This document shows, in pieces, positions 22,892 through 37,081 of a DNA stretch of 44,008 nucleotides (position 1 is its first letter; the number at the start of each line of letters is the position of its first letter). Source of the stretch: Jiangella anatolica (lineage in GTDB: Bacteria; Actinomycetota; Actinomycetes; Jiangellales; Jiangellaceae); contig NZ_POTW01000055.1 in the NCBI RefSeq assembly GCF_003236295.1, positions 1-44,008 on the forward strand. The letters are read 5' to 3'. The notes under the pieces are model-generated. The model had not been told where the DNA came from. It did not search any database and saw only the letters and a program-made list of their open reading frames with translations. The translations under genes were made by a program, and so were the position numbers.

Positions 22892-23269
22892 ATGCGAGAG
22901 GCATATCGGATCACGACGTTTGTGCCCCCGGAGAGTCTGGATGCGTTACTCGAGGGAATCGAAGCCGAGGTCGAGTTGAGGTTCGGCCCCTACGACCGAT
23001 CCGCCTGGTGGTCCGCACCGGGTGTCGAGCAGTTTCGCCCCCTGCCGGGCGCCTCGCCGTCCGTCGGGGAGGTCGGGCGAACCGAACGCGTGCCGACCAT
23101 CCGGCTGGAATTCGTGATCCCCCGCGACCCCGGCCTGCTGGAGCGTGTCGTCGATCGAGGACTGATCGCCAACCATCCATGGCAGGAGCCGGCCGTCATC
23201 GTCGACGAATCGATCGTGTCGGCGACCCAACTGGCAGAGCCAGTGGGCCCCCAGGGGATCGAACCCTGA
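22892..23269 (+). CDS. stand-alone YqfO/NIF3-insert (CutA-like) domain protein
   Basis: A 125-aa protein. The pattern TTFVPPESLDALLEGIE, YDRSAWWSAPGVEQFRPLPGASPSVGEVGRTERVPTIRLEFVIPRD, then NHPWQEPAVIV matches the CutA/GlnB-like domain inserted in NIF3/YqfO proteins (GTFRPxxGANPxIGExGxxExVxExRLE, HPYEEPAYD). It is found here without the dinuclear-metal NIF3 domains. In such domains these motifs may sense metal or ligand. The last codons (PQGIEP-stop) are read from the tRNA-derived attachment repeat at 23243, so the gene overlaps the integration site; the repeat duplication preserves its C-terminus. Confidence 0.68.
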   Translation: MREAYRITTFVPPESLDALLEGIEAEVELRFGPYDRSAWWSAPGVEQFRPLPGASPSVGEVGRTERVPTIRLEFVIPRDPGLLERVVDRGLIANHPWQEPAVIVDESIVSATQLAEPVGPQGIEP

Positions 23270-23281
23270 ACCCGCGGATTA
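23243..23281. repeat. left attachment site (tRNA-Lys 3' copy)
   Basis: 39 bp identical to 37008-37046. It corresponds to the discriminator base, acceptor 3' strand, T arm, variable region and 3' anticodon stem of tRNA-Lys read on the minus strand, and it diverges right at the anticodon loop (gcgg here, aaag in the tRNA). It is the displaced end of the original chromosomal tRNA gene. Confidence 0.93.
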
Positions 23282-23471
23282 GCGGTCTAGCCTTCTCGTC
23301 GCCTCTCGCGTACTTGCTCGCGCCGCTCTGGCCAGCAGCGACGCCGTCTTGGGCCTGTCGAACATTCTCATCAGTTCGAGCCGTCATCGCTGCAATTCCA
23401 TGGGCCAAACCATGGGCGCTGGGGTCGGCACGGGGGCCGCCGTGAGCGTGCTCCGCCTCATCCCCAGTCGC

Positions 23472-23502
23472 CCCCGGCCGGTGCGTGAACACCGGGCCGG
23501 GG
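23472..23502 (+). promoter_or_regulatory. GC-rich hairpin ahead of first cargo gene
   Basis: CCCCGGCCGGTG (23472-23483) and CACCGGGCCGGGG (23490-23502) pair with one bulged G around a 6-nt loop, ending 35 bp before the ATG at 23538. It could end transcription entering from the chromosome or structure the leader of the cargo gene. The rest of 23282-23537 shows no coding sequence I can support. Confidence 0.4.
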
Positions 23503-23537
23503 ACTTGATCCCACCTGACTAGACCAGGAGAGACCCA

Positions 23538-24086
23538 ATGGTTACCGTATCGAAGCCGAAGGAGCGGGAGATCACCCGCGTTCCGTTCTTGCATCAAAGC
23601 CTCGGGGAGATCGTCGTCTTTCATGACGAGGAAGGCCCGACGATCGATGTGACGATCCGTCCGGAGGGCACCGAGCAGTTCGCGCAGTTCGGCTTGGTGC
23701 CGATCGAAGCGCACCAGCTGGCCGACGAGCTGCACCGCATCGCCGATCTCGCGCAGCGGGCCGGCTGGACCCCGGCCGTCCTCACCGACGCGCGAGCGTA
23801 TCTGCCGGGCATGACCGACGAGCAGATCATCGAGCGGCTGGACCGGCTCTACCGCCGATGGGACGGGTTCGTGCTCGGCCGCCGCGGAATGCTCGATCGC
23901 CGCGCCGGCCGTGCGCTGGCCGCCGAGCTTCACATGGAGACGCTGGAACGCTCGGCCGCGCTGGTTGAGCAGCACGCGAAGACGTTGTCCGGGATCCCGG
24001 AGATGGCCGACCGGTTGAGCGAGCTGCGCTCGTCGCTGCAGGACGTGCGGCAGCTCTTCGCCGCGGAGCTGGAGCGGTACACGTGA
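23538..24086 (+). CDS. unknown AICE cargo protein (182 aa)
   Basis: A 182-aa protein with AGGAGA ahead of ATG 23538. The N-terminal third is beta-rich (ITRVPFLHQSLGEIVVFHDEEGPTIDVTIRPEG), the middle carries IEAHQLADELHRIADLAQRAGW, and the rest is mostly helical with heptad-like spacing (AELHMETLERSAALVEQHAKTLSGIPEMADRLSELRSSLQDVRQLFAAELERY), suggesting a coiled coil. No catalytic motif and no membrane segment. It is coupled by GTGA overlap to the next small gene. I do not recognise the family. Confidence 0.7.
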   Translation: MVTVSKPKEREITRVPFLHQSLGEIVVFHDEEGPTIDVTIRPEGTEQFAQFGLVPIEAHQLADELHRIADLAQRAGWTPAVLTDARAYLPGMTDEQIIERLDRLYRRWDGFVLGRRGMLDRRAGRALAAELHMETLERSAALVEQHAKTLSGIPEMADRLSELRSSLQDVRQLFAAELERYT

Positions 24087-24376
24087 CCGGCATCGTCGAC
24101 CGCAACACGGTCTGCTCGGTGAAGTGGTGCGACGAGAAGGGCCGTCACACGGTGCACCGCCGATACCTGGCCTCGGTGCCCGGCGGGATGAGCGGTGCCG
24201 GCCTGGTCGGGGTGAACCTCGCGCAACGCGTACAGCCGCGGGCTTCGGTGTGTGTGGAGCTGACGGTGACCACCCCGTGGGCGGCGACGGCCGGCTTCCT
24301 GCTCGCCGTCACGGCCGCGCCGGAGATCGCGGCGGCACTGACCGAAGCCGCCGAGCGAGCGACACACCTGGGCTGA
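24083..24376 (+). CDS. unknown small AICE cargo protein (97 aa)
   Basis: A 97-aa protein from GTG 24083, overlapping the previous stop by 4 nt. It has two Cys near the start (NTVCSVKWCDEKGRHTVHRRYL), then a beta-rich centre (VGVNLAQRVQPRASVCVELTVTTPW) and an Ala-rich helical end. The CxxxxC with nearby His residues could bind metal, but the pattern is weak. It follows the 182-aa gene as a two-gene operon; function unknown. Confidence 0.6.
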   Translation: MTGIVDRNTVCSVKWCDEKGRHTVHRRYLASVPGGMSGAGLVGVNLAQRVQPRASVCVELTVTTPWAATAGFLLAVTAAPEIAAALTEAAERATHLG

Positions 24377-24396
24377 GGACGGCGGCAGAACGACTG

Positions 24397-24425
24397 ATGA
24401 CGACTGTAACTACTCGTAGTAGGGT
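24397..24425 (+). promoter_or_regulatory. toxin-antitoxin promoter with ACTAC-GTAGT dyad
   Basis: ATGACG (24397-24402) and TAGGGT (24420-24425) are 17 bp apart; the ATG of the toxin lies 8 nt after the -10, implying a leaderless transcript. The dyad ACTAC-TC-GTAGT (24409-24420) lies in the spacer, with another GTAGTAG just downstream, a layout fitting a ribbon-helix-helix operator. Confidence 0.6.
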
Positions 24426-24433
24426 TGTAGTAG

Positions 24434-24721
24434 ATGAACGTGGATTGGACGCACGGTGCCGCACACATGTGGGAGCAGCACCGGGTGACCGAGCAGGAGG
24501 CGAACGAAGCACTGGCCGACCCGCAGGCCGCGGTGCTCGATCCGGACACCAAGAGCAAGTCCGGGAAGAGCATCCGGGTCATCGGGTTGTGCCGGTCGAG
24601 GGAGGAGTTGTTGACGGTGATCCTGGTCCGCGACCCGCGGGTGTCGTGGTTGTGGGGCGCGAACGGGTGGCCGTCGAACAGCACCGACCGGCGCGAGTAC
24701 ATGAAGAGGAGCAGGAGATGA
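24434..24721 (+). CDS. BrnT-like toxin
   Basis: A 95-aa protein of RelE-like fold resembling BrnT: VDWTHGAAHMWEQHRVTEQEANEALADP, D-x-x-SKSGKSIRVIGLCRSREELLTVILVRD, then STDRREYMK at the end, which aligns with the HGVxFEEA, GERxLGLSxxGRxLxVVY and E-x-x-x-Y blocks of the family. It ends in an ATGA overlap with the RHH protein gene. BrnT toxins cut mRNA and are held by BrnA; toxin-first order is as expected. Assignment is by pattern and genomic context. Confidence 0.7.
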   Translation: MNVDWTHGAAHMWEQHRVTEQEANEALADPQAAVLDPDTKSKSGKSIRVIGLCRSREELLTVILVRDPRVSWLWGANGWPSNSTDRREYMKRSRR

Positions 24722-25041
24722 GCCGGATCGAGGACAAGATCAAGGAGATCCAGGCCGAGTCCGAGGCGACCAGGGACGAGCCGTATCCGGAGGGCACGAA
24801 ATTCACCCAGCCGAACCTGGCCGGGTCGGTGGTGCAGTCGGTGCGGTTGCCGGCGGCGGAGTTCGCGAAGATCGAGCAGATCGCTCGTGAGGCCGAGCTC
24901 CCGGTGTCGGCGCTGATCCGCGGCTGGGTGCTCAACACGCTGGCGGCTCGGGAGAACGCCACGTTGAAGGACGCGGTGAACCGGCTCATCTCCGACGCCG
25001 ACGAGCTGCGCCGCTTCATCGACAGCGACCCCGCCGCATAG
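24718..25041 (+). CDS. ribbon-helix-helix antitoxin
   Basis: A 107-aa protein from ATG 24718 (AGGAGCAGGAG upstream). An acidic N-terminus (RIEDKIKEIQAESEATRDEPYPEG) precedes the RHH core VVQSVRLPAAEFAKIEQIAREAELPVSALIRGWVLNTLA, a strand followed by two helices. It should bind DNA as a dimer at the ACTAC/GTAGT dyad and neutralise the BrnT-like toxin encoded directly upstream. This module would stabilise the integrated element. Confidence 0.83.
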   Translation: MSRIEDKIKEIQAESEATRDEPYPEGTKFTQPNLAGSVVQSVRLPAAEFAKIEQIAREAELPVSALIRGWVLNTLAARENATLKDAVNRLISDADELRRFIDSDPAA

Positions 25042-25486
25042 TCGGCGCGAGGCGTTGCCACTCTCCGGCGTCGTCCTCGTAACTGCCGCCTCTAGGCCGA
25101 AGCGGAGCGTGTCCAGGGTCGACGTAGTCGATCGCGTAGCGACACGGAGCGCAGCGCAGTGCCCTTGACTCGCGCAGTGCAGGCCGGACCATGGCGGCAT
25201 GAGGGCGACGCCCCCTGACAGGCAAGGCCCGGTGCACGGTTGGCCGGCGATGGTGGAACCACTCCACCGTCGCCGGCCTTCTGCATGCCCGGCGGCCGCC
25301 GGCCGGGCCGCGGGAGGGACCGGCCGCCAGGCCGCATGCCCGACCCGGCCCGCAGCCGAGCGGGCCGCGCGGCGAGCGCAGCGAGCCGCCTTGACGGAGT
25401 ACAGAAAATTCTCACATTTCACGCGGCGAATCAGAAGCACTGCCTCTAGAATCCCGCTACTCTGTGATGCCTGAAGGGGGCAACGG
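25042..25486. other. 445-bp non-coding gap at the left edge of the nuclease island
   Basis: No credible reading frame. The middle holds a strong hairpin (25242-25278) and GC-rich, repetitive tracts of CCGGCC and GCCGC (25288-25385). The last 100 bp turn abruptly AT-rich (AGAAAATTCTCACATTTC) and include a TAGAAT -10-like box near 25447, about 35 bp before the ATG of the large nuclease-like gene. The change in composition marks the boundary of a separately acquired block. Confidence 0.6.
25242..25278 (+). terminator. stem-loop terminator, 16-bp stem
   Basis: Arms 25242-25257 and 25263-25278 pair with a single mismatch around the loop ACCAC and are followed by TTCT. It closes the toxin-antitoxin transcript, insulating the nuclease gene that starts at 25487. 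Confidence 0.75.
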
Positions 25487-27751
25487 ATGGCGATCGCCGC
25501 AGAGAGGTTTGAGGTCGCGCTAACGGGCCTGGAAGGTACTCAGTGGCGGCTGTTCGAACGCGTGGCGACCGTCTTTCTCGCGGACGAGCTCCCCTCGCTG
25601 CGACCGACAGCCAGCGAGAGCGGCGACCTCGGAGCTGACGGCCTCCTATTCCAGGTCGAGGACGACCCGTCGGTTCTGGTTCAGATGTCCGTCCGGAAGG
25701 ACTGGCAGGCGAAGATTAATGAGACATGCACGCGCATTAAGGTGACTTTCCCCGAGGTGCGCGTTCTCATCTTCATCACGAATCAACTGACGGGCGGTGA
25801 GCACGCTAAAGCACGGAAGAACGTGCGCGAGAAGCACAAAATCCACCTTGACCCCCGTGATCGCGAATGGTTTGTAACTCACAGGAATGATTCCAGCGCG
25901 ACAATAGCCGAGGCCGAGGAATTGGCGCGCCAGATCGTAGATCCAATGCTGGCTGCTCCCGTCGCCGCGATCGAACGTCAGGCGCAAGCGCTCGACGACT
26001 TAGAAGCGAAGGCAGCCTTTCTTTATCTGGGCCTTCAATGGGCTGACGATAATAAGGAGAAAGGGCTCACCAAACTATGCTTCGAGGCGATCGTCCGATC
26101 CATCCTTCGCGATACGACGAGTGACGATGGCCAACGTATGGTCCGCGAAACGATCCATGAACACACGCGGAAGCTGCTCCCGGCGCACAACGTCGACGTT
26201 CTCAGGACTCAGGTAAACGGCGCCCTAAGCAGACTGTCTGACCGTAATCGACGGTATATTCGGCACTGGAAGAAGATCGACGAATTTTGCCTTACATGGG
26301 ACGAGCGACTGAGACTAGCTGAGAGACTGACGCAACTCCAGGCATTGGATGAATCACTGCGGCGGGAGCTCAGGCGGGCGGTCGCGACATCTGCCGCGGA
26401 GAATAGTGCGGAAATCCTGACAGAGAAGGACCTCGACGATCTCGTCGACTTTTCGCGCGCAGTGATCGAGCGCGTATTGCTCGACCGCGGCGAAGCCTTC
26501 GCGTCAGCGGTGACACACGAATTGGGCGAGGAAGTAAAGTACACCGACATTGAGGCGATCGTCGACAAGGTCATCGTTCAGCGCTCCATCGCCCCAAAGA
26601 TTCCGGCCCACGTCCTCGCTGCGACGATACAGTCGCTGCTCATCGAACCGCCCGAAGCTGTGAGGCGCTATCTTAGGAATCTGGCAGACACATATACCCT
26701 TTTCGCCTTCATGCGCGAGACGCCGGACGTTCAGTCGGCCGTTGTGAAGATGTTCTCAGATGCCGATCTTTGGCTCGACACCAACGTAGTCCTACCCCTC
26801 TTGGCCGAAGAATTACTGGACCTCGGCTCGCGCTCGCATACCCAACTCCTGAGCGCTTCACGAGAAGCAGGGTTGCAGCTGTACATTACGGAGGGCGTAC
26901 TTGAAGAGCTGGTGACACATATCCATCGATCGAATGTGTACGCGAGCGCGTTACGTGGAGGCGGAGGCGCAGAAGGCCGCCCTCCATTCTTGTATACAGC
27001 GTATAAACTCGCCGGCCGGGACACCTCGACTTTTGGGCAGTGGCTGGAGAACTTCTGCGGCCGGGAGCGCGAAGCGGATCTTCTCGACTATTTAGAGGAA
27101 GAGCACGGCATTAGCCTGAGCCCCCTCACAGACTTTGCAAACAAGGCTTCTACTGAATTGCGCGGCGCCGTTGCTGAAATTTGGCACGAGGCGCGTGACG
27201 CTCGCGACGAGCGAAACGCCGCTATAGGGCTCCCCGCAATGGACTCGATCACCCGCGACAAGCTAGTAGCCCATGACGTGGAAAACTATGTCGGCATAGC
27301 AATGAGACGTCAGGAACGCGGAGAGCGGAGATCTGCCTTCGGATACAGATCTTGGTGGCTAACACTCGCCGGCACCGCGTTCAGAGTTGCCGCACAACTC
27401 CCATCACGAATAGTGGAGAAGCCGCCGGCGTCGCCCGCGATGAGTCCAGACTTTATGCTGAACTACCTTTCAATCGGACCTGTACGTTCTAGGCTTTCGC
27501 GGAGTTCCGAGGAGTCGCTTCCTCTCATGCTCAACATGTCCGTAATGGACGCCGTTCCCCCGGATCTCATCGAGCTCGCGGATGAGTTGCGCTCGCAGCT
27601 CCAGGGTCTCGCTCCGCGGATTGTGCGCCGTAAGATCCGCGAAACCTTGGAGGATGCTAAGAGGCTGATGGGTCCGACAGCTGCCGCTGGGGAGATCGGC
27701 CTAACGGAGGACGTCAAAAGGCGCCTTATTGAGCATGCCCTAGAAAGGTAG
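25487..27751 (+). CDS. putative dual nuclease: REase-like N-terminus plus PIN-like C-terminus
   Basis: A 754-aa protein with GAAGGGGG ahead of ATG 25487. Residues 20-130 resemble an Mrr/PD-(D/E)xK domain: helix FERVATVFLADE, then SESGDLGADGLLF (candidate catalytic Asp) and VLVQMSVRKDW, though the usual Q-x-K is not clean and the site may be degenerate. Residues 160-410 are helical. Residues 425-630 look like a PIN nuclease: DLWLDTNVVLPLL (Asp431), ITEGVLEEL (Glu469/473), AHDVENYVGIA (Asp597), then GYRSWWLTL. No ATPase or membrane segment. The gene is AT-richer than its neighbours and has four TTA codons (Leu172, 443, 489, 536). Family not recognised; a two-nuclease defence effector is my inference. 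Confidence 0.72.
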   Translation: MAIAAERFEVALTGLEGTQWRLFERVATVFLADELPSLRPTASESGDLGADGLLFQVEDDPSVLVQMSVRKDWQAKINETCTRIKVTFPEVRVLIFITNQLTGGEHAKARKNVREKHKIHLDPRDREWFVTHRNDSSATIAEAEELARQIVDPMLAAPVAAIERQAQALDDLEAKAAFLYLGLQWADDNKEKGLTKLCFEAIVRSILRDTTSDDGQRMVRETIHEHTRKLLPAHNVDVLRTQVNGALSRLSDRNRRYIRHWKKIDEFCLTWDERLRLAERLTQLQALDESLRRELRRAVATSAAENSAEILTEKDLDDLVDFSRAVIERVLLDRGEAFASAVTHELGEEVKYTDIEAIVDKVIVQRSIAPKIPAHVLAATIQSLLIEPPEAVRRYLRNLADTYTLFAFMRETPDVQSAVVKMFSDADLWLDTNVVLPLLAEELLDLGSRSHTQLLSASREAGLQLYITEGVLEELVTHIHRSNVYASALRGGGGAEGRPPFLYTAYKLAGRDTSTFGQWLENFCGREREADLLDYLEEEHGISLSPLTDFANKASTELRGAVAEIWHEARDARDERNAAIGLPAMDSITRDKLVAHDVENYVGIAMRRQERGERRSAFGYRSWWLTLAGTAFRVAAQLPSRIVEKPPASPAMSPDFMLNYLSIGPVRSRLSRSSEESLPLMLNMSVMDAVPPDLIELADELRSQLQGLAPRIVRRKIRETLEDAKRLMGPTAAAGEIGLTEDVKRRLIEHALER

Positions 27752-27808
27752 AGCATCGGTCTTGGAGGCTCCGTCAAGCTCTGTACGGATACAGAGCGGC
27801 GCCGCCTG

Positions 27809-28207
27809 TCAGCCGTACAAGGCCAAGTACCAGTAGCAGAACACCGCCGCCAAGAGGACTCTAATCGCCTGCCCGCGAGTGATCGGCTGGTGCCGATGTG
27901 CGACGGCATTTCTTAGGCTGACGAGGTCTCCAAGTGCCTCATGCAACTCCTGCGTGACCGCCGGCGCACCGCGCTCAGCCATGACTGAAGGTAGGAGGAT
28001 CTTCAACTGGTGACTGAACGTTGCCCCACGCTGCAACATATCGTCTACCCGATCGGCCACGGCAAATTGCGAGTAATGTGATTTGAGGAACCCATACAAC
28101 CTTCTCTCGACGGCGACAGCCGCTGGAACGATCACCCTCCTATACTCTCCCGCCGCCAATTCATCGGATGCATCGAAAAGTGCCCCTATGCCTGGATCGT
28201 CGCTCAT
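27809..28207 (-). CDS. HEPN-like protein (or C-terminal part of a frameshifted gene)
   Basis: A 132-aa frame from ATG 28207, all helical: ELAAGEYRRVIVPAAVAVERRLYGFLKS, then LGDLVSLRNAVAHRHQPITRGQAIRVLLAAVFCYWYLA. The RNAVAH segment (Arg99 to His104) is the R-x4-6-H motif of HEPN RNases and antitoxins. The open frame extends upstream to 28261 without a ribosome site, and the first 47 nt overlap the zinc-ribbon frame in the +1 frame. Either the two are overlapping coupled genes or one gene broken or joined by a +1 shift near 28210-28240. It is convergent with the REase/PIN gene, ending 58 bp away. Confidence 0.62.
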   Translation of the reverse strand: MSDDPGIGALFDASDELAAGEYRRVIVPAAVAVERRLYGFLKSHYSQFAVADRVDDMLQRGATFSHQLKILLPSVMAERGAPAVTQELHEALGDLVSLRNAVAHRHQPITRGQAIRVLLAAVFCYWYLALYG

Positions 28208-28712
28208 AGATTGAAACGCGCAAAGAACTTGCCACGGTCGTCGTTTCCGGCGGATCCCCAAGCGGCCTGGGAAAGATGGCGAGTTGGTGCGGGATGGTTC
28301 GGCCGTAGTGTTGACTCATGATCGCCGGCATAAGCACCCCTTCCTCAGTCCCATCCTGCGGAGTGAAGTTTACAGCGTGAATTTTTGCGTCGGCCGGAAT
28401 GCCGATACTTGCAAAGTCGAACACCAGTCCTTCGCCGCGCCGAAGCACAATCGTGCCAAGTTGCCACGAGCCAAGCCCAGCAGTTATTGCGCCTGGGAGC
28501 ATAGGATTCTCATTCCCAATGCTGTCACGCAGGAGATCCCAGAGGCTGGCTTGCCCTCCACATTCGCACCTGATCTGCAGTCGCCGGAAGTAGTAGCCGA
28601 ACATCACTGCGTCGGGGACGGCTAAGTGCTGATTGCATGATAGGCACGAAGGTCCAGGGCTCAGGGTCGCGGCGGGGATCCGCGGCTGGTCCGGCTCAAG
28701 GTTGGCGTCCAC
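28161..28712 (-). CDS. zinc-ribbon, beta-rich unknown protein (N-terminal partner of HEPN frame)
   Basis: A 183-aa frame from GTG 28712 (start uncertain; weak AGG upstream). Near the start PSCLSCNQHLAVPDAV and later LQIRCECGGQASLWDLL supply Cys pairs of a zinc ribbon. A beta-rich region follows (GLVFDFASIGIPADAKIHAVNFTPQDG, PHQLAIFPRPLGDPP). The last about 16 residues (ERRSRHRGTFRCIR) look like out-of-frame sequence, while the HEPN frame begins there, so the natural product may be a single Zn-ribbon/HEPN protein of about 315 aa. AT-rich codon use matches the nuclease gene across from it. Function unknown. Confidence 0.58.
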   Translation of the reverse strand: MDANLEPDQPRIPAATLSPGPSCLSCNQHLAVPDAVMFGYYFRRLQIRCECGGQASLWDLLRDSIGNENPMLPGAITAGLGSWQLGTIVLRRGEGLVFDFASIGIPADAKIHAVNFTPQDGTEEGVLMPAIMSQHYGRTIPHQLAIFPRPLGDPPETTTVASSLRVSIYERRSRHRGTFRCIR

Positions 28713-28889
28713 CTGCGCATTCCATCACAAGATGCCGATCGCGAGCCCGACGCTCGTGCTGCTGGAACGCGTGTTTGGGCAGTACATTCGAGGTCGGCGT
28801 TCGGAGTGGCTCCGACAAGACTTCGCTGCCGGGCGCAGACGCGCGAGGTGCGGCGTTCACCAGGTAAACCGTAACGCTCGGATGGGGGT

Positions 28890-29447
28890 CTACAGGCGCT
28901 CAGTCGTTTCGACAATGGCGTGGCGGATCTTCGTCCAAGGGAGTCCACGCCTAGGCGACATGCGTGGGGCGTACAGGGGCCAGACGTCGTCCCCCATCAC
29001 AAGGTGAACGCCTGCGCTTTGGAGGGTATCGACGTGCCCGCTCCACGCGGGGTGCGCTGCGTGTGCTGCGTTGATGCGAGGGAAGATGACGATCGGCGGC
29101 GTTCCGTTGCCGATGGCCTCGCCCACGCTGGTGAGCGCGTAATTGTCGGCTATGCCGAGGGCGAGCTTCGCGACGGTGTTCGCAGTTGCGGGAATGACCG
29201 CATAGCAGTCGACTTGCGGATGGGGACTCGTCTCGCTGGGCAGGCGGGCTTGGTCGCGCACAGGCAGGCCCGTTGCCTCCTGGATCTTGTCGAACTCCCC
29301 CGAGGCGCGTAGCCAGGTTGCGGCCGTCGGTGTGACGGTGACGGCGACGGTCCAGCCGTCGCGCTGCATGGGCTCGATCAACTCGGTTCGGAGGTCTTCG
29401 ATGCCGCCGGCTGCGCAGGCGATGAGTCCGAGAATGGGGCCGGTCAT
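28890..29447 (-). CDS. flavoprotein of the HFCD/Dfp family
   Basis: A 185-aa protein: ILGLIACAAGGIEDLRTELIEPMQRDGWTVAVTVTPTAATWL opens like the flavin-binding CoaC/Ubi-X fold, followed by DCYAVIPATANTVAKLALGIADNYALTSVGEAIGNGTPPIVIFPRIN, which contains the PATANT-x-x-K-x-x-x-G-I-A-D-x-L motif of FMN binding. The proteins decarboxylate cysteinyl peptides or act in prenyl-FMN chemistry; a stand-alone copy here has no clear substrate. The start overlaps the XRE regulator stop by ATGA. XRE-flavoprotein pairs of this kind recur in actinomycete mobile elements. Confidence 0.85.
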   Translation of the reverse strand: MTGPILGLIACAAGGIEDLRTELIEPMQRDGWTVAVTVTPTAATWLRASGEFDKIQEATGLPVRDQARLPSETSPHPQVDCYAVIPATANTVAKLALGIADNYALTSVGEAIGNGTPPIVIFPRINAAHAAHPAWSGHVDTLQSAGVHLVMGDDVWPLYAPRMSPRRGLPWTKIRHAIVETTERL

Positions 29448-30658
29448 ACGGCTCGGCAGCGTTCCGCGAGCTGCATGACGATGGACTGACGACCGCCCAT
29501 GGTGACGGGTGAGCGGCGGTAGATCGCCCGGACGGTCTCGCGGACGGCTGGGTTGTGGCGGACCAGCTGTGGTGCCTGCTGCTCGGCCGTGAGGAGCGCG
29601 TCGACGGCCTCGTCGTCCTGGGCGAGATGGCTGTAGGCACGGGCGACATCGATGCGGTGGCAGACCTGCCGCTCAACGGGCAGCGGGCTCGGGTCAATGC
29701 GCGGGCCATGCTCGGCCACGTAGGCGACGTCCCCGAGATCCAACGCCGTGGTGACGCGATGCACGTGGACGTTGGTCGGACCGAAGGCGGTCTGCCAGTG
29801 GTTCGCGTCGTGGCCCAACTGGTCCGCTGCATCGGCGGCTCGATCAAGCAGTTGCGTCGTGGTGGCGCGGTCTTGTCGGCGGGCAGCGGCCACGGCCATG
29901 CGTAAGTCGAGCATGCCGAGCAGGCTGAGCGCTTCGGGCTCGCCGGCGTGGACTGTGCCTGCCAACCAGCTGCGGGCCGCGTCCCCGACTTGTAGGGCGT
30001 CGTCGTAGCGGCCGACGGACAGGAGCGCGTGAGTGCCGGCGCGGGCGGCTGAGGCGAGCGCAAGGGGGTCTTCGGACTGGCCGGCGGCGCTCATGGCTCG
30101 CTCGGCCGCGATCCATGCGAGGTCGACCTCGCCGATCTTGCTGAGCGTCGTGGCGGCGAGGTGATGCACCCTGGCGGACACTCGCCAGCCGGCCCGGGTT
30201 CCCTCGGCTTCGAGTGCTTGAGCAGATTCGAGCAGCTGAGGCAGGACGGCAATCGTTCGGCCGAGTCCGCCGTTCTGGTAGTCATCCCACGCAGCGGCGG
30301 TCATCCGCTCGGCGTGCGTGACGTCGATCTGCACGACAGCGGTCTGATTGAACAGCAACTGGGAGAGCCGACGAGGACTCATGAGCGCATCGCGGATGGC
30401 CGGCACGTCATCGTTGGCGCGGTCGTCCTCGACGAGGACCGGTTGCCCGATGAGGTCGGCCAGCGTGACGCGCAGAGCGCGCGCCAGCTCGGTGATGACG
30501 TCAAGTCGCCGGATGTCGCGCTCACCGCGCTCGATCTTGCTGAGCCAGTCCTCGGATCGGCCCACGAGGTTGGCGAGCACGGATTGGGTCAGGCCGCGCC
30601 GCACTCGGTAGAACGCGATGCGCTCTCCGATGCTGAGGGTGTCCCCTGCTCCATGCAT
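29444..30658 (-). CDS. XRE-family regulator with long TPR-like C-terminal domain
   Basis: A 404-aa protein. Residues 8-70 are a Cro/C1 HTH (SIGERIAFYRVRRGLTQSVLANLVGRSEDWLSKIERGERDIRRLDVITELARAL). The remaining 330 residues are helical repeats of TPR type (LPQLLESAQALEAEGT, AARAGTHALLSVGRYDDALQVGDAARSWL, LDLGDVAYVAEHG), as in actinobacterial XRE regulators that may sense peptides or metabolites. It is coupled to the flavoprotein gene and faces a palindromic operator 35 bp upstream. It probably regulates itself and the flavoprotein. Confidence 0.87.
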   Translation of the reverse strand: MHGAGDTLSIGERIAFYRVRRGLTQSVLANLVGRSEDWLSKIERGERDIRRLDVITELARALRVTLADLIGQPVLVEDDRANDDVPAIRDALMSPRRLSQLLFNQTAVVQIDVTHAERMTAAAWDDYQNGGLGRTIAVLPQLLESAQALEAEGTRAGWRVSARVHHLAATTLSKIGEVDLAWIAAERAMSAAGQSEDPLALASAARAGTHALLSVGRYDDALQVGDAARSWLAGTVHAGEPEALSLLGMLDLRMAVAAARRQDRATTTQLLDRAADAADQLGHDANHWQTAFGPTNVHVHRVTTALDLGDVAYVAEHGPRIDPSPLPVERQVCHRIDVARAYSHLAQDDEAVDALLTAEQQAPQLVRHNPAVRETVRAIYRRSPVTMGGRQSIVMQLAERCRAV

Positions 30659-30692
30659 GGTGTCAACGATAGGTCAGCAGGTCAGTCACGTA

Positions 30693-30711
30693 CCCGGACA
30701 GTTTGTCCGGG
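30693..30711. promoter_or_regulatory. palindrome CCCGGACA-GTT-TGTCCGGG
   Basis: Perfect 8-bp arms with a 3-bp centre, 35 bp upstream of the XRE regulator start. A TATCGT -10-like box lies between it and the ATG on the minus strand. It is the likely operator of the XRE regulator, or less likely a short terminator for the GntR-side transcript. Confidence 0.68.
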
Positions 30712-30784
30712 CGACCCCTTGCGGGCAGGGTTCTGCTGGTGGTGTGACGGCCCGCAGCATCGAACGAAGCACGCCTGCCCCTCG

Positions 30785-31114
30785 TCATGGGCGGCCGGCG
30801 GCTAGGTCGTCGACGCGCTCTGTCAGCGTGCGCACGGCCTCTTCGAGGCGATCAAGCCGTGCCTGGGTGTCGTCAGGGCGACGAGCCGCAGCGCTCACGT
30901 CGTCGGCGACGAATACGCCCTTGCCCTGGCGGCCGACGATCAGCCCGTCGCGGCGCAGCTCGTTGAGCGCGTCCCGCACGACGGTGCTGGACACGTTGTG
31001 CTGCTCGCGCAGCTTGGTCATGGACGGCAGCTGGCTTCCCGGCGGCAGCTCCCCCGCCGCGATCCGCCCGCGCAAATCGTCCGCGAGCTGGCGAAACGCG
31101 GGCGCGCTCGACAT
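30785..31114 (-). CDS. GntR-family regulator, KorSA-like
   Basis: A 109-aa protein from ATG 31114 with GGAGG six bases before. The winged helix is FRQLADDLRGRIAAGELPPGSQLPSMTKLREQHNVSSTVVRDALNELRRDGLIVGRQGKGVFVADD, the classical GntR N-domain with no sizeable effector domain; only a short helical tail follows (LDRLEEAVRTLTERVDDLAA, coiled-coil-like). Position, divergent to the transfer operon, matches korSA of pSAM2, which represses transfer and replication activation. Operators at 31150-31225 fit this role. Confidence 0.88.
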   Translation of the reverse strand: MSSAPAFRQLADDLRGRIAAGELPPGSQLPSMTKLREQHNVSSTVVRDALNELRRDGLIVGRQGKGVFVADDVSAAARRPDDTQARLDRLEEAVRTLTERVDDLAAGRP

Positions 31115-31149
31115 CCATCGCCTCCGTCCAGGGCGCGGCACTTGTTGCC

Positions 31150-31225
31150 GCACTATGTGCAGCTTTTGTAAACCATGCGGCCATGGTATACAAACTTGAC
31201 GCACTATGTCGACATAGTGCAGTCT
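31150..31225. promoter_or_regulatory. multi-operator divergent promoter region of the AICE
   Basis: Three nested signals occur. (1) GCACTATGTCGACATAGTGC at 31201-31220 is a perfect 20-bp palindrome; its half GCACTATGT recurs at 31150-31158. (2) TTTGTAAACCATG (31165-31177) and CATGGTATACAAA (31182-31194) form a 13-bp inverted repeat with one mismatch, containing the GTATAC type of core known for GntR operators. (3) TTGACG at 31196-31201 is a -35 for the rightward transfer operon, with a weak CAGTCT (31220-31225) as -10; the 20-bp palindrome lies between them. Probable binding sites of the GntR regulator and perhaps a second factor. Confidence 0.8.
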
Positions 31226-31289
31226 GAAGACGTCTCGCACGCCTCCGGGTGCGAGATCGGGGAGAGACCCCGTTACGAGAGGAGAGGTC

Positions 31290-31688
31290 ATGGCGACCTA
31301 TGCAGTGGACAGCAAGCGGCAGTCGATGCTGGCGACCGGTGTGGTCAACCCGGTGCATGAGTGGGAGGACACGCCGGACGGGTCGCGTCGGCAGTCTGAG
31401 CGTCAGGCGATCGATGAGGAGACGCATCTGCCGTTGTGGGGTGTGGAGGTCATCTACCGGACGGTGTCGTTCGACCGGGAGTTGACGGCGCGGGCGCTGG
31501 TGACGGTTCCGGTGCCGTTGCGGCCGGAGATCGCGGACTACTCGCCGATCGAGTTCGGTGACCTGGTGGCGTCGGCGCGGGCGACGAAGACGGGTCAGCT
31601 GGTCGAGTCGTGGCGGGCCGGTGGGATCGCGTCGCACACGCCGCGCAAGGACGCCGGCAAGGCCACGTCGGGTGAGAAGGCGGCCTGA
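31290..31688 (+). CDS. conserved AICE protein of unknown function (132 aa)
   Basis: First gene of the rightward transfer operon, with GAGAGGAGAGG before ATG 31290. The centre is strand-rich (THLPLWGVEVIYRTVSFDRELTARALVTVPVPLRPEIADYSPIEFGDLVASAR) and the ends are charged and probably disordered. No catalytic or membrane motif. Proteins of this kind open the transfer/replication operon in many AICEs. A DNA-binding or accessory transfer role is guessed only from position. Stop to next ATG is 2 nt. Confidence 0.68.
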   Translation: MATYAVDSKRQSMLATGVVNPVHEWEDTPDGSRRQSERQAIDEETHLPLWGVEVIYRTVSFDRELTARALVTVPVPLRPEIADYSPIEFGDLVASARATKTGQLVESWRAGGIASHTPRKDAGKATSGEKAA

Positions 31689-31690
31689 CG

Positions 31691-32218
31691 ATGACCGTCA
31701 TCGAGGTCCCGACCGACGCCTACGCGGCCGCTGACTGGCTCGCTGGCCGGCATCCGTGGGTGCGGCAGCTGGTCGAGCGGATCGCCGGGCGCATCGACGA
31801 CCACCCCGACTGGCTGGATGTCATCACACAGGCCGTGAACGAGAGCGAGGGCGATGGTGCCGCGTGGGTGGAGTACGAGCGCCGGCACCCGGCACCGGAC
31901 GACGACGCGGCGTTTTGGGAGTGGCACGCGCAAGGCCCAAAGGCCTCGCCGCACGTGCGGGCGTTCGGGGTCATGTCCAGCGGGGAGAAGAACCTCGTGC
32001 GCCTGGTGGCCACGCTGGGCGGCCGGGTCGCCTGGTCCCCGCGCGATGTGTCGTTCGACCAGCGTGGCGCGGCCGTGCTCGCGGACTGGCTGGCGATCGT
32101 GCACGCCCAGCTTCCGGCCTGGCTGTACCCGGCGGCGTCGGATGACGCGCTGGTGGTGCGGCTGGCCGCGGTGAGCGACGCGACCAACGGCCAAGGAGTG
32201 CCCGCGGTCTCGCGATGA
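31691..32218 (+). CDS. conserved AICE protein of unknown function (175 aa)
   Basis: Second gene of the operon. It has several Trp-rich helical patches (AAADWLAGRHPWVRQLVERIAG, AAFWEWHAQGPKA) and a core SSGEKNLVRLVATLGGRVAWSPRDVSFDQRGAAVLADWLAIVHAQLPAWL. No signal peptide, no P-loop. Probably cytosolic. Function unknown; its fixed place between the regulator and the translocase gene suggests a transfer or copy-control accessory role. A strong stem-loop follows 5 bp after its stop. Confidence 0.7.
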   Translation: MTVIEVPTDAYAAADWLAGRHPWVRQLVERIAGRIDDHPDWLDVITQAVNESEGDGAAWVEYERRHPAPDDDAAFWEWHAQGPKASPHVRAFGVMSSGEKNLVRLVATLGGRVAWSPRDVSFDQRGAAVLADWLAIVHAQLPAWLYPAASDDALVVRLAAVSDATNGQGVPAVSR

Positions 32219-32222
32219 GTCC

Positions 32223-32271
32223 CCACCGGGGACGGGTGACAGGCCTAGGAAACCAACCCCGTCCCCGGTGG
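32223..32271 (+). promoter_or_regulatory. strong 14-bp inverted repeat inside the transfer operon
   Basis: Perfect arms CCACCGGGGACGGG (32223-32236) and CCCGTCCCCGGTGG (32258-32271) with a 21-nt loop containing the palindrome AGGCCT. It separates the first two operon genes from the membrane/translocase genes. It could be an attenuating terminator, an RNA stabiliser, or a cis-acting transfer site for the TraB-type translocase; the sequence alone does not decide. Confidence 0.65.
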
Positions 32272-32304
32272 CCCAATCAACACCCCCGAATGGAGGGGAT
32301 TGGT

Positions 32305-32469
32305 GTGTCCAAGCCTACGACCTGGCGACTCCCGCTCGCCGCACTCGGCATCGTCCTCGCCCAGCTGCTGACCGTCGCCGTTCTCATGATCGGTGCCGAC
32401 GAGGTGCAAGCCGAGCGGTCCGACGCCGCCCGCCACGCGGCAGTGACGCGTTGTGGTGATCGCCCATGA
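32305..32469 (+). CDS. small membrane protein, Spd-like
   Basis: A 54-aa protein. GTG 32305 is preferred because GGAGGGG lies six bases before it; ATG 32290 would place that site inside the gene. One hydrophobic segment (LPLAALGIVLAQLLTVAVLMIGA) is followed by a charged tail with a single Cys. The stop overlaps the next ATG by ATGA. Small membrane proteins next to traB-type genes are often spread (spd) proteins assisting intramycelial transfer; this role is inferred from position. Confidence 0.62.
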   Translation: MSKPTTWRLPLAALGIVLAQLLTVAVLMIGADEVQAERSDAARHAAVTRCGDRP

Positions 32470-32627
32470 CGTCCGCGATGGTGGCGTGTTCCGTCTGCGG
32501 CCGGCTGGTGGAGGCCGTCAAGGCGTGGTTCCACCCCGGCACCGGCGACACCGTCTGCGACTCCTGCCACGCCACCGCGCATGCGCGGCACGCGGAGCTG
32601 ACGGCTCTTGAAGGGCTGCTTCGATGA
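32466..32627 (+). CDS. small zinc-finger-like protein (53 aa)
   Basis: A frame from ATG 32466 to 32627, linked by ATGA overlaps on both sides. It reads MTSAMVACSVCGRLVEA, then TVCDSCHATAHARHAELTA, so two CxxC pairs (CSVC and CDSC) about 22 residues apart plus several His residues make a compact zinc ribbon. Tight coupling with the membrane protein and translocase genes supports it being real. It may bind DNA or a transfer protein. Confidence 0.68.
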   Translation: MTSAMVACSVCGRLVEAVKAWFHPGTGDTVCDSCHATAHARHAELTALEGLLR

Positions 32628-34093
32628 GCCCTCGACCCGAACTGACCTCGAAGACCATCAAGATCTTCGCGGCGTTCGTGCAGAACCTGCGTGATCGCGA
32701 CTCGCTGGTCCGGCGGTTGCTGCGCGGCCTGGGCTGGGTGACCGCCACGCCGCTGATGCTGCTGCACCGGCTCCCGGCCGTGTTCGCCGCCGGCTGCCTG
32801 CTGCTGCTCGCCTACAGCGTGGTCGGCGCGGGCGGCCTGGTCCTGCTGCTCGTGCTGCCGACGGTGGGTTGGGTGGTGTGGCGGCTCGCGCACCCGGAGT
32901 CCGCGGAACGCGTCGCCGCGCAGGTGCGGGGCCGGTGGCGGTACCGGCGGATCTACCGCAAGCACTGGCCGGCCGTCGCCGCCGGCTGCGGCCTCACCGT
33001 TGCCGGCTCGTTCGGCCGGCAGGTCGCGCCCGAGCTGATCGGCGTCACGGCGCATCCGGCCGCCGACGCCGTGCGCGTGCGGCTGCTGGCGGGTCAGTCG
33101 CCGGCCGACTATGCCGACCGTGCCGACGCGCTGGCGCACGCGTTCGGCGTGACCCAGGTCCGCGTCCGCAGCGATGAGCCGGGCACGGTGACGCTGTCGT
33201 TCAGCACCGGCGACCCGCTCACCGACCCGATCCCGCAGATGCGGCTGGATGCGCGGGCTGTGGACTTCGAGGCGCTGCCGGTCGGGTTCACCGAGGACGG
33301 CGACCTTTACCGGCTGCGGCTGCTGTACCGGCACGTTCTGACGGCTGGGATGACCGACTCCGGCAAGGGGTCGGCGCTGTGGTCGACCGTGCGGGCGCTC
33401 GCGCCGGCGATCCCGTCGGGTGTGGTCCAGCTGTGGGGCGTGGACCCGAAGGGCGGCATGGAGCTGGCGATCGGTCACGCGCTGTTCTCCCGGTTGGCCG
33501 CCGACGACGAGCCCGGCGACATGGTCCGGCTCGTCGCCGACGCCGCCGACCTCGTGCGCGAGCGATCGAAGCGACTGCGCGGCCACACCCGCAAGCACAC
33601 CCCCACGACTGACGAGCCGTTCGTCGTGCTGGTCATCGACGAGCTGGCCTACCTGACCGACTACCAGGACGACACCAAGCTCAAGCACCAGGTCAACAAG
33701 GCCCTCAAGATCGTCCTGTCCCAGGGGCGCGCCGCCGCCGTCTCGGTGCTCGCGTTTGTCCAGGACCCCCGCAAGTCCGTCGTCGACGCCCGCGGCCTGT
33801 TCCCCACCAAGATCGCGCTCCGGCTGGACACCGCATCCGAGGTCGAGATGGTGCTCGGCAAGGACGCCTGGGAACGCGGCGCACACGCCGAAGCCATCCC
33901 GGACTCGCAGCCCGGCACCGGCTACGTGCTCGTCAAGGGCGACCCCACCCCGGTCCGGCTCCGCTTCACCTGGGTCACCGACGACGACATCCGCGCCATG
34001 GCCCAGCAGTTCCCGGCCGCGCAGCCGGCACCGCGACGCCACGGCTTCACCGTCGTCACCGACAAGGACGGCGAGAGCGGAGCGGTCGCATGA
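32624..34093 (+). CDS. TraB/FtsK-SpoIIIE-type DNA translocase
   Basis: A 489-aa protein. Two hydrophobic segments at about residues 40-90 (PAVFAAGCLLLLAYSVVGAGGLVLLLVLPTVGWVVW) anchor it. The motor domain has Walker A GMTDSGKGS near 242-250 and Walker B FVVLVIDELAYL near 335, then LSQGRAAAVSVLAFVQDPRK and the RFTWVTDDDI tail. It is short compared with FtsK and matches TraSA/TraB of AICEs, which alone move double-stranded DNA between mycelial cells by recognising short repeats. No relaxase is needed or present, in line with that mechanism. Confidence 0.92.
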   Translation: MSPRPELTSKTIKIFAAFVQNLRDRDSLVRRLLRGLGWVTATPLMLLHRLPAVFAAGCLLLLAYSVVGAGGLVLLLVLPTVGWVVWRLAHPESAERVAAQVRGRWRYRRIYRKHWPAVAAGCGLTVAGSFGRQVAPELIGVTAHPAADAVRVRLLAGQSPADYADRADALAHAFGVTQVRVRSDEPGTVTLSFSTGDPLTDPIPQMRLDARAVDFEALPVGFTEDGDLYRLRLLYRHVLTAGMTDSGKGSALWSTVRALAPAIPSGVVQLWGVDPKGGMELAIGHALFSRLAADDEPGDMVRLVADAADLVRERSKRLRGHTRKHTPTTDEPFVVLVIDELAYLTDYQDDTKLKHQVNKALKIVLSQGRAAAVSVLAFVQDPRKSVVDARGLFPTKIALRLDTASEVEMVLGKDAWERGAHAEAIPDSQPGTGYVLVKGDPTPVRLRFTWVTDDDIRAMAQQFPAAQPAPRRHGFTVVTDKDGESGAVA

Positions 34094-35583
34094 GCGCGCC
34101 GGAGCTGACACACGCGGAGCTGGTGTTCCAGCTGGCGTCGCTGTCGCGCAGCAGGGCCGGCGAGCAGGCCCGCGGCTGCGTCAATCCGATCCGGCTGACC
34201 GGCTCGTCGACCACGATCAACGCGAGCACGGGTGAGGTCGTGCGCGCGTACTCGTCCGACGACGAGCCCGACGGGCACACGTACGTCCGTTGCGGCAACC
34301 GCCGCGCCGCCGTCTGCCCGTCCTGCAGCCGTGAGTACAAGGGCGACGCGTGGCACCTGCTGTCCTGCGGCCTGGCCGGCGGGAAGAGCGTCCCGGAGAC
34401 GGTGGCGCAGCATCCGGCGACGTTCGCGACCTTCACCGCGCCATCGTTCGGGGCCGTTCACCGCCACACCCGACCCGCCAACGGCCGCACGTCGCCGTGC
34501 CGGGCCAGGCGCGATCGCCCGCGCTGCCCGCACGGACGGCCGCTGTCGTGCGTGCGGCGGCACGACGCCGACGACCCGCAGGTCGGTCAGCCGTTGTGCC
34601 ACGAGTGCTACGACTACACCGCCCACGCCGCGTGGCAGTGGTGGGCGCCGCAGCTGTGGCGGTACTTCACTATGGCGTTGCGCCGCCGCCTCGCCCGCGC
34701 CGCCGGCCTGTCGATGAAGGCGTTCACGAGCGCGGCCAAGGTGTCCTACACCCGCGTCGTGGAGTTCCAGGCCCGCGGCGTCGTGCACTTCCACGTCGTC
34801 ATCCGCCTCGACGGTCCCGACGGCCCCACCACCCCGCCGCAGCTGCCGCTGACGGTGACCGACCTCGAGGACGCGGTACGCCACGCCGCCGCGCACGTGC
34901 ACAAGGACGTGCCCATCCCCGGCGGGCAGACGCTGCGGCTGCGGTGGGGCCGGCAGCTCGACCTGCGCACCATCACGCCCGGTACCGGCCGCGACAACCA
35001 GGCCGGTCCGGCGCACCCGCACCAGGTCGCCGCGTACCTCGCCAAGTACCTGACCAAGTCGACCGAGGACTTCGGGCTCCCCGTCGCCGGGAAGCTCTAC
35101 AGCGCCGGCCACGCCGCCAAGCACGGCGCGACCCCGCACGCCGTCCGCCTCATCAAGGCCGCACAGCAGCTCGTGCCCATCCACGACGACTACCAGCGCT
35201 TGAAGGACCGCTACGCCACGCTCGGCTACCGCGGCCACCCCATCACCAAGAGCCGCGCCTACAGCGTGACCTTCGGCGCGCTCCGCACCGCCCGCCGGCA
35301 ATGGCGGCAACGCCGCGCCCAGCTCCCCACCGACGCCGACGTACGAGACGTTCTCGACGTCGACCAGGCCGACACCGAAGACACCGCCACGACGGTCGTC
35401 GTCGGCAGCTGGCGCTACGCCGGACGCGGCTACCTCGACACCGCGGCCGCCGCCAACGCCACCCGCTCGGCCAACCTCGCCCGCATCCGACGCGCCGAGG
35501 CACAGACCTTCGCCGCCGGCGTGGCCGATGGGCCCGCCGCACAAGAATCCGTTGGTGATAGCAGGGAGAAATCTTATGGCTGA
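34090..35583 (+). CDS. RepSA-type rolling-circle replication initiator
   Basis: A 497-aa protein overlapping the translocase stop by ATGA. N-terminal CPSCSREYKGDAWHLL and later LCHECYDYT give Cys pairs of a zinc-binding region common in RepSA/Rep of Streptomyces elements. Motif II of HUH initiators is ARGVVHFHVVIRLDG near 230, and the Tyr region is VAAYLAKYLTKST near 314-325. The C-terminus is Arg-rich. It should nick a double-strand origin and replicate the excised element; the origin was not located. Confidence 0.9.
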   Translation: MSAPELTHAELVFQLASLSRSRAGEQARGCVNPIRLTGSSTTINASTGEVVRAYSSDDEPDGHTYVRCGNRRAAVCPSCSREYKGDAWHLLSCGLAGGKSVPETVAQHPATFATFTAPSFGAVHRHTRPANGRTSPCRARRDRPRCPHGRPLSCVRRHDADDPQVGQPLCHECYDYTAHAAWQWWAPQLWRYFTMALRRRLARAAGLSMKAFTSAAKVSYTRVVEFQARGVVHFHVVIRLDGPDGPTTPPQLPLTVTDLEDAVRHAAAHVHKDVPIPGGQTLRLRWGRQLDLRTITPGTGRDNQAGPAHPHQVAAYLAKYLTKSTEDFGLPVAGKLYSAGHAAKHGATPHAVRLIKAAQQLVPIHDDYQRLKDRYATLGYRGHPITKSRAYSVTFGALRTARRQWRQRRAQLPTDADVRDVLDVDQADTEDTATTVVVGSWRYAGRGYLDTAAAANATRSANLARIRRAEAQTFAAGVADGPAAQESVGDSREKSYG

Positions 35584-35764
35584 GACAGTCGAACCGACCT
35601 GGACGGTCGACGACGTCGCCGCCTACCTGCGCGTGCCCAAGGCGACGCTCTACCAGTGGCGGTGGAAGAACTACGGTCCGCCGGCCGCTCGGGTAGGCCG
35701 TGGTCTGCGGTACGTGCGCGCCGATGTCGAGGCGTGGTTTGCGGCACAGTTCGAGGTTGCGTAA
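35576..35764 (+). CDS. xis: excisionase (Xis), MerR-like winged helix
   Basis: A 62-aa protein from ATG 35576, with AGGGAG upstream and overlapping the end of rep by 8 nt. WTVDDVAAYLRVPKATLYQWRWKNYGPPAARVGRGLRYVRADVEAWFAAQ is the MerR-type excisionase/HTH_17 fold. The TAA stop shares one base with the integrase ATG. Xis directs the integrase to excise the element. rep-xis-int in this order is the pSAM2 arrangement. Confidence 0.9.
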   Translation: MAETVEPTWTVDDVAAYLRVPKATLYQWRWKNYGPPAARVGRGLRYVRADVEAWFAAQFEVA

Positions 35765-36954
35765 TGGGTCGCGCGCCGCTGCCGATCGGCACGTGGGGCA
35801 AGATCCGCACCTACGTCGACAAGACCGACGCCAAGGGCAAGCCGATTCGGCATCGCGCGATCGCCCAGTTCCGCGAATTCGACGGTCGCACAAGGCCAGT
35901 CGAGGCCCACGGTAAGACGCCCACCGCCGCTGCCAACGCACTACGCGAGAAGCTGACGGTGCGGGCGAAGGCTGGCCGTACGGGTGATCTCACGGCGTTG
36001 CACCGCTGCTCCGACGCCATTGACCTCTACCTGGCGAAGTTCAAAGAGCGTGTCGAGGCTGGCAAGCGGTCCGCGGGCACGTTGGAGCTCTACGAACGCC
36101 ACATCAAGAACCACGTGCGGCCTGCACTCGGTGAGGTCCGTCTCGGGGAGATCTCGACACCGCTCCTGGACAAGATCATCGCGAAGATCAAGAAACAGTC
36201 CGGCGCGGCGACCGCGAAGACCTGCCGGAGCATCATCTCCGGCGTCATGAAGCTGGTGGTGCGATACGGCGTCATGGCGGTCAACCCCGTGCGCGAGGTC
36301 GACAGCATCGAAGCCGAGCCGAAGAACCCGCCGCGGGCGCTCACCGAAGCCGAGCTGACCATGTGGCTCGACACGCTCCGCAGCGAGCCCATCGCCATGC
36401 GGTGGGACCTGCCCGACCTGACCACGTTCATGCTCGCTACCGGCTGCCGCATCGGCGAAGCGCTGGCCGTGATGTGGGAGCAGATCGACCTTGAAGCCGG
36501 AACCGTCGAACTGACGCACACCGTGATCCGGCTGACCGGCATCGGTCTGATCCGGAAGAAGACCAAGACCAGTGCTGGTGAACGTCTGCTACAGCTTCCG
36601 CTGTTCGGCATCGTCATGCTGCGTCGCCGGTTCGCTGAGGGCATCCGACTTGATCAGCCGGTTTTCGCGAGCACGGTCGGTGGGCTGCGTGATCCGTCGA
36701 ATGTGCGGAAGGTGCTCCGTCAGGTGCGTGGCGACGGGGCCTTGGCGTGGATCACGTCGCACGCGTTCCGCAAGACGACGGCGACGGTTCTCGACGATGC
36801 GGGCCAGTCCGCGCGTCAGGTGGCGGACCAGCTTGGGCACTCACGACCGTCGATGACGCAGGATGTGTACATGGCGCGGCGTGTGTTGAACCCGACAGCC
36901 GCAGGCCTGCTCGATGACGCTCTACTGGCGAAGGTGGCGGAAAACCATGGGTAA
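35764..36954 (+). CDS. int: tyrosine site-specific integrase
   Basis: A 396-aa phage-type integrase: an N-terminal arm-binding region (GTWGKIRTYVDKTDAKGKPI), a SAM-like core-binding domain (LYERHIKNHVRPALGEVRLGEI) and the catalytic domain with Arg in ATGCRIGEALAV (about 227), His-x-x-Arg in SHAFRKTTATVL (about 332), His in LGHSRPSMTQ (about 357) and the nucleophile Tyr in DVYMARR (about 369). All catalytic residues are present. It lies 54 bp from the tRNA-Lys attachment site, which it presumably recognises. Confidence 0.95.
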   Translation: MGRAPLPIGTWGKIRTYVDKTDAKGKPIRHRAIAQFREFDGRTRPVEAHGKTPTAAANALREKLTVRAKAGRTGDLTALHRCSDAIDLYLAKFKERVEAGKRSAGTLELYERHIKNHVRPALGEVRLGEISTPLLDKIIAKIKKQSGAATAKTCRSIISGVMKLVVRYGVMAVNPVREVDSIEAEPKNPPRALTEAELTMWLDTLRSEPIAMRWDLPDLTTFMLATGCRIGEALAVMWEQIDLEAGTVELTHTVIRLTGIGLIRKKTKTSAGERLLQLPLFGIVMLRRRFAEGIRLDQPVFASTVGGLRDPSNVRKVLRQVRGDGALAWITSHAFRKTTATVLDDAGQSARQVADQLGHSRPSMTQDVYMARRVLNPTAAGLLDDALLAKVAENHG

Positions 36955-37007
36955 AGCATGGCCTCCGCTGCTGGTCGCGCTGGGTCGAGCCGCTGACCTG
37001 CTGTGGG

Positions 37008-37046
37008 GTGGGCCCCCAGGGGATCGAACCCTGAACCCGCGGATTA
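37008..37046. repeat. right attachment site, overlapping intact tRNA-Lys 3' part
   Basis: 39 bp identical to 23243-23281. It extends from the base after the tRNA discriminator to the 3' anticodon stem; crossover is expected within it. Recombination between the two copies would release a 13,765-bp circle and restore a single intact tRNA. Confidence 0.93.
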
Positions 37047-37081
37047 AAAGTCCGCTGCTCTGCCAATTGAGCTAGAGGCCC
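37009..37081 (-). tRNA. tRNA-Lys, anticodon UUU
   Basis: A 73-nt cloverleaf read on the minus strand. Acceptor GGGCCTC pairs with GGGGCCC (one G-U), D stem GCTC/GAGC, anticodon stem GCGGA/TCCGC with loop CTTTTAA, variable GGGTT, T stem CAGGG/CCCTG with TTCGATC, discriminator A. The anticodon TTT reads AAA/AAG lysine codons. CCA is not encoded. Its 3' half is the attachment site of the integrated element. Confidence 0.96.

Follow-up and report, generated by a model that had tools for sequence, protein, structure and literature searches.

Two overlapping reading frames on the reverse strand of the window (the whole stretch of Jiangella anatolica DNA analysed, 44,008 nt) are very probably two halves that once formed a single gene for a ZnR-HEPN protein of about 300 aa, split by an ordinary frameshift that was either a mutation or an error of the draft assembly. 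The upstream frame, A (28712–28161), starts at a GTG and encodes 183 aa, with cysteines at positions 23, 26, 49 and 51 and a C-terminal end that reads RRSRHRGTFRCIR before the stop codon. Frame B (28261–27809), whose open stretch reaches from 28315 to 27809, comprises 132 aa from an ATG at 28207; it represents the HEPN-like half, carries the Rx4H motif, and finishes with LRNAVAHRH...LALYG and a stop. Frame B lies +1 relative to frame A, with 47 nt of overlap between the end of A and the ATG of B. The first-pass annotation had described overlapping +1 frames, one of 183 aa with Cys pairs and the other bearing RNAVAH, and the coordinates and frame relation bear this out; its further proposal that they look like one +1-shifted gene agrees with all of the full-length relatives and with a joined reading that crosses the junction (E 6e-9).

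Each of the six full-length relatives, which come from five actinobacterial genomes of one family and one Burkholderia plasmid, is one uninterrupted ORF of 294–313 aa. They are G578 (locus L041; 313 aa), G425 (294 aa), G469 (302 aa), G437 (300 aa), G411 (298 aa) and Burkholderia pyrrocinia WP_258285330.1 (NZ_CP091309.1 plasmid; 313 aa). In all six, an N-terminal part with four cysteines is joined to a HEPN-like part at the C-terminus that carries Rx4H. They are distant from the joined window protein (16–27% identity), and the four cysteines, the R and H of Rx4H and an upstream Glu are invariant in the seven aligned sequences (six relatives and the window). The Burkholderia protein resembles that of the window in sequence (27% identity), in its four cysteines and in the motif RDAVAH, and differs in being one intact ORF; its gene precedes uvrA on a plasmid of 880 kb.

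Among 396 genomes of the phylum, the joined query turned up G578 and G425 as its two true relatives, and a profile search of the G425 family matched six of 11 genomes, with full-length, uninterrupted copies in five (G578, G425, G437, G469 and G411). In the sixth, G519, the profile found a C-terminal fragment only and no full-length copy; this HEPN-end remnant lies at 1322–1456 of L103. G437 has a second, cut-down copy about 4 kb from its intact gene, consisting of the C-terminal (HEPN) half with one stop (L102 1402–1647, contig 21). The fragment and the second copy were left out of the full-length count. The intact gene adjoins a GAF-SpoIIE phosphatase gene in three of the five actinobacterial relatives (L070, L071 and L081), and a GAF gene lies near it in L082; these neighbors may tie the ZnR-HEPN gene to a signalling pathway.

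The joined reading of A and B behaves as one protein. When it was used to search a plasmid collection with tblastn, it matched Burkholderia residues 41–299 in one piece (E 6e-9), and neither A alone nor B alone gave anything in the same collection at E 0.01. Compared pairwise, with composition correction and the low-complexity filter off and a one-sequence database, frame A matched Burkholderia residues 13–122 (E 2e-7) and frame B matched residues 193–302 (E 7e-11). Scores against the Burkholderia protein were 141–172 for joined A and B, 82 for A alone and 107 for B alone, and 500 shuffles averaged 33 (sd 4.9, maximum 56). Past the shift, the third frame contains six stops and adds no score, while B contains none. 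Two unrelated neighboring genes, or a chance open frame, might be suspected from the weak family matches of both frames; both halves align, in the right order, with a single protein from another phylum and the joined score far exceeds the shuffles, so the chance of this is negligible.

The two halves are not equally well placed in the family. When a profile was built from the five actinobacterial relatives, B was its sole match (E 0.014) among 4611 open stretches from the window together with 300 kb of its genome, and frame A gave no match to this five-sequence profile (−3.8 bits). Similarly, hhalign against the actinobacterial relatives returned B (probability 38, E 3e-4) and nothing for A. 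The putative membership of frame A rests on the Burkholderia protein and the cysteines.

Wider searches for relatives of the single frames yielded little. Frame B found its own genome only among 12 genus and 393 class genomes. Besides its own genome, frame A had matches in two of 22 family genomes and eight of 393 class genomes, all at E 0.003–0.009, and no usable relative. Viral contigs also contained no usable relative, nor did phages queried with frame A and the Burkholderia protein. The 42 weak-match loci and further joined-query hits (own contig C196 and G091 included) were other proteins or noise, except for G578 and G425. When the six relatives, with the window left out, were searched against the 42 loci (tblastn, 1e-3), they retrieved L041 and the HEPN-only loci L087, L088 and L089. 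Candidates in G006, G310, G336 and G320 were rejected as HEPN-only proteins of other architecture, and a single weak HEPN-side match of P0004 among plasmids, in Corynebacterium maris (E 8e-3), was dropped.

The frame change most likely occurs at 28253–28163 on the reverse strand, where both frames are open and the joined score is 155–172 at every junction; junctions 28304–28298 also score 155–161 against the Burkholderia protein. Codon statistics trained on 182 same-genome genes place the change at about 28245–28200, with frame A preferred in the window 28320–28245 and frame B from 28230–28155 onward. The method is noisy: within A, 28530–28455 and 28500–28425 prefer B and 28680–28605 slightly prefers the third frame, and in the overlap 28290–28215 prefers the third frame and 28260–28185 prefers A at 0.66. 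The actinobacterial profile mildly favors a junction at 28235 or upstream (10.1–11.3 bits vs. 7.0–9.2 bits downstream). Homology to relatives that are 16–27% identical gives no exact junction, and the searches found no close relative. Depending on the junction, the out-of-frame tail of A spans its last 13–30 codons. The frame change thus falls at the border of the N-terminal and HEPN modules.

In this sequence the one-step shift leads translation of A into those 13–30 out-of-frame codons and then to a stop, and the HEPN half lacks its own ribosome site. The first-pass annotation had noted no ribosome site there, and there is no anti-Shine-Dalgarno match of at least 3 nt upstream of the ATG at 28207; the GTG of frame A is preceded by GGA at a spacing of 8. 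The missing site is weak evidence, since the XRE gene at 30658 likewise has no anti-Shine-Dalgarno match. Promoter and terminator scans of 27600–28950 found none.

The first-pass annotation had offered three explanations for the shift, of which a plain frameshift fits best. Programmed +1 frameshifting, by which this sequence would yield the fused protein, has the right direction and about 150 nt in which both frames are open, and is nonetheless highly improbable: all six full-length relatives are unshifted, the RNA of 28130–28250 has no stimulatory structure and folds less than its shuffled versions do (z +1.77), and direct reading of the overlap showed no stop-codon slip site of the prfB type. 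A programmed shift at the stop of A alone would, moreover, replace the start of the HEPN half with out-of-frame residues.

Translational coupling over the 47 nt, the third explanation, is possible, as part of a tolerated split that has made separate genes of A and B, with B translated from the ATG at 28207 and the products perhaps cooperating. The lesion sits at a domain border with an adjacent ATG where the HEPN half begins, as a tolerated split would also have it, and neither half has a further stop or has lost its conserved residues. We nevertheless consider such a split unlikely, given that B has no Shine-Dalgarno-like match before its ATG, A finishes in out-of-frame residues and the full-length relatives are fused in six of six cases. 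Natural functional fission into a coupled zinc-ribbon subunit and a HEPN subunit that are still expressed from the surrounding element is quite unlikely. For the favored reading, an ordinary frameshift in a single gene, the absence of any further stop or shift in 300 codons indicates that the break is recent or an assembly error, and the genome is a draft in 256 contigs. The decayed copies in relatives (the second G437 copy and the G519 fragment) suggest that decay needs no special cause. The gene would then be either newly disrupted or, if the assembly is at fault, still intact.

Its motifs, read against PMC3710099, suggest that the intact protein is most likely a HEPN ribonuclease whose zinc ribbon serves in targeting or regulation. 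That text predicts Rx4-6H to be the site at which HEPN domains act as RNases, and a table there gives the zinc ribbon as one of the domains fused to DUF4145-like HEPN. The window protein has this motif as RNAVAH, with a polar residue after the R and with R and H invariant in seven of seven sequences. Its C-terminal half is thus similar to DUF4145-like HEPN (PF13643) as described in that text, being HEPN-like with Rx4H and the polar residue, and differs in that the window and Burkholderia proteins score under the Pfam cut-offs and the window gene is frame-disrupted. B itself missed the PF13643 gathering score (18.1 vs. 23.1 bits, E 0.0029). PF05168 was reached by one of the six relatives (L081, 22 of 22 bits), and the Burkholderia protein rose above no HEPN cut-off. 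A low-confidence AlphaFold2 model of the joined protein from its single sequence contains five long helices at 187–299 (pLDDT about 42–68; model mean 42.5); a PDB search with this model, at that mean pLDDT, returned no significant match, and PDB sequence searches gave nothing useful.

Frame A combines a four-cysteine region with a beta-rich one. The four cysteines form two closely spaced pairs (Cys 23 and 26, Cys 49 and 51) and so make a putative zinc ribbon, and zinc-finger Pfam models matched neither the window nor the relatives at cut-off. A Pfam scan of frame A, and PADLOC, PHROGs and NCBIfam scans of both frames, produced nothing useful; among NCBIfam and PADLOC models there is none that gives the ZnR-HEPN protein a name, and literature on HEPN or zinc-ribbon proteins and AICEs had nothing on it among the matches listed. 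The ancestral protein would have comprised a zinc-ribbon-like N-terminal part with four cysteines, a middle part and a HEPN-like C-terminal part with Rx4H, of which the last is predicted to cleave RNA and the first may recognise nucleic acid or a partner.

The gene probably came with an actinobacterial element that integrated here and carried it as cargo. Judging from its gene content and repeats, this is an element of the AICE kind, approximately 13.8 kb long, at a tRNA-Lys gene (window 23243–37046). Its ends are 39-bp att repeats, a distal copy at 23243–23281 on the forward strand and an identical copy at 37008–37046 within the tRNA-Lys(TTT) integration site (37007–37081, reverse strand). 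Between the repeats lie, on the forward strand, genes for a tyrosine integrase (35656–36954; PF00589, 57 bits), a RepSA replication initiator (34090–35583; PF20199, 483 bits) and an FtsK/SpoIIIE-type transfer protein (32624–34093; PF01580, 27.4 bits), which is the combination of integrase, RepSA-type Rep and FtsK-type Tra at a tRNA gene expected of an AICE; GntR and XRE regulator genes are present as well. The element therefore resembles AICEs as set out in the excerpted text of PMC3218068 in its att site at the tRNA-Lys end, tyrosine integrase, RepSA, FtsK-type Tra, GntR/XRE regulators and lower-GC cargo. It differs in that a Pfam scan of 11 of its ORFs showed no excisionase or pra gene, and in its ZnR-HEPN cargo, which that excerpted text does not describe. 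A/B and the gene that faces it have a GC content of 0.58–0.59 vs. 0.70 for the window, so both look foreign. Elsewhere in the element, at 24434–25041 on the forward strand, a BrnT-like gene (18.1 bits, below the cut-off of 34.5) precedes a ribbon-helix-helix-like gene that likewise scores under its cut-offs; the two are possibly a BrnT/BrnA-like pair.

The facing gene (25487–27751, forward strand) encodes 754 aa, with an REase-like N-terminus and a PIN-like middle. The N-terminus of its Phytohabitans relative matches a PADLOC REase model (E 2.4e-5), PIN matches in the middle are weak, and fold matches to EcoT38I and VapC are non-significant. A fold computed from seven sequences (mean pLDDT 71.3) had no significant match in the PDB, and none of the libraries scanned has a name for the protein as a whole. 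Relatives are about 31% identical on enterobacterial plasmids and 33–56% identical in seven genomes from Phytohabitans to Hymenobacter; full-length ones occur in Phytohabitans, Leifsonia, Tsukamurella, Rubrivivax, Magnetococcales and on the enterobacterial plasmids, where the gene stands between a 146-aa gene and a gene for a TrlF-family ATPase.

That the ZnR-HEPN gene might be a partner or antitoxin of this REase/PIN-like gene, as the first-pass annotation suggested, was not supported. The two genes converge with 57 nt between their stops and share their low GC content. On the other hand, no A/B match was found beside facing-gene relatives in 11 loci, which include the similar plasmid segments L006, L007 and L009 (best E 0.025). 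Profile A5, built from two sequences, matched none of the seven genomes with facing-gene relatives; it did match its positive control, W01, a control that does not extend to the actinobacterial relatives. Conversely, when the facing gene was sought in 27 genomes or records, it occurred in the window's genome only and in none of the seven others with a ZnR-HEPN match, of which G519 has a fragment only and W01 is one plasmid. A/B also bears a predicted RNase motif of its own, and on these sequence comparisons a partnership is improbable. Further searches with A5, run without a positive control, gave no match in the order to which the Rubrivivax genome belongs (170 genomes) or in the family of the Phytohabitans genome (111 genomes).

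The protein is of a kind already known, and the present copy is a frame-disrupted member of it. The case brings together a small, diverged set of single-ORF ZnR-HEPN proteins, from Actinobacteria and from Burkholderia, which curated models all but miss. Both the suggested frameshifting device and the suggested toxin-antitoxin pair fall away, and the biology is mostly that of ordinary gene decay, or of an assembly error, within the cargo of an element.
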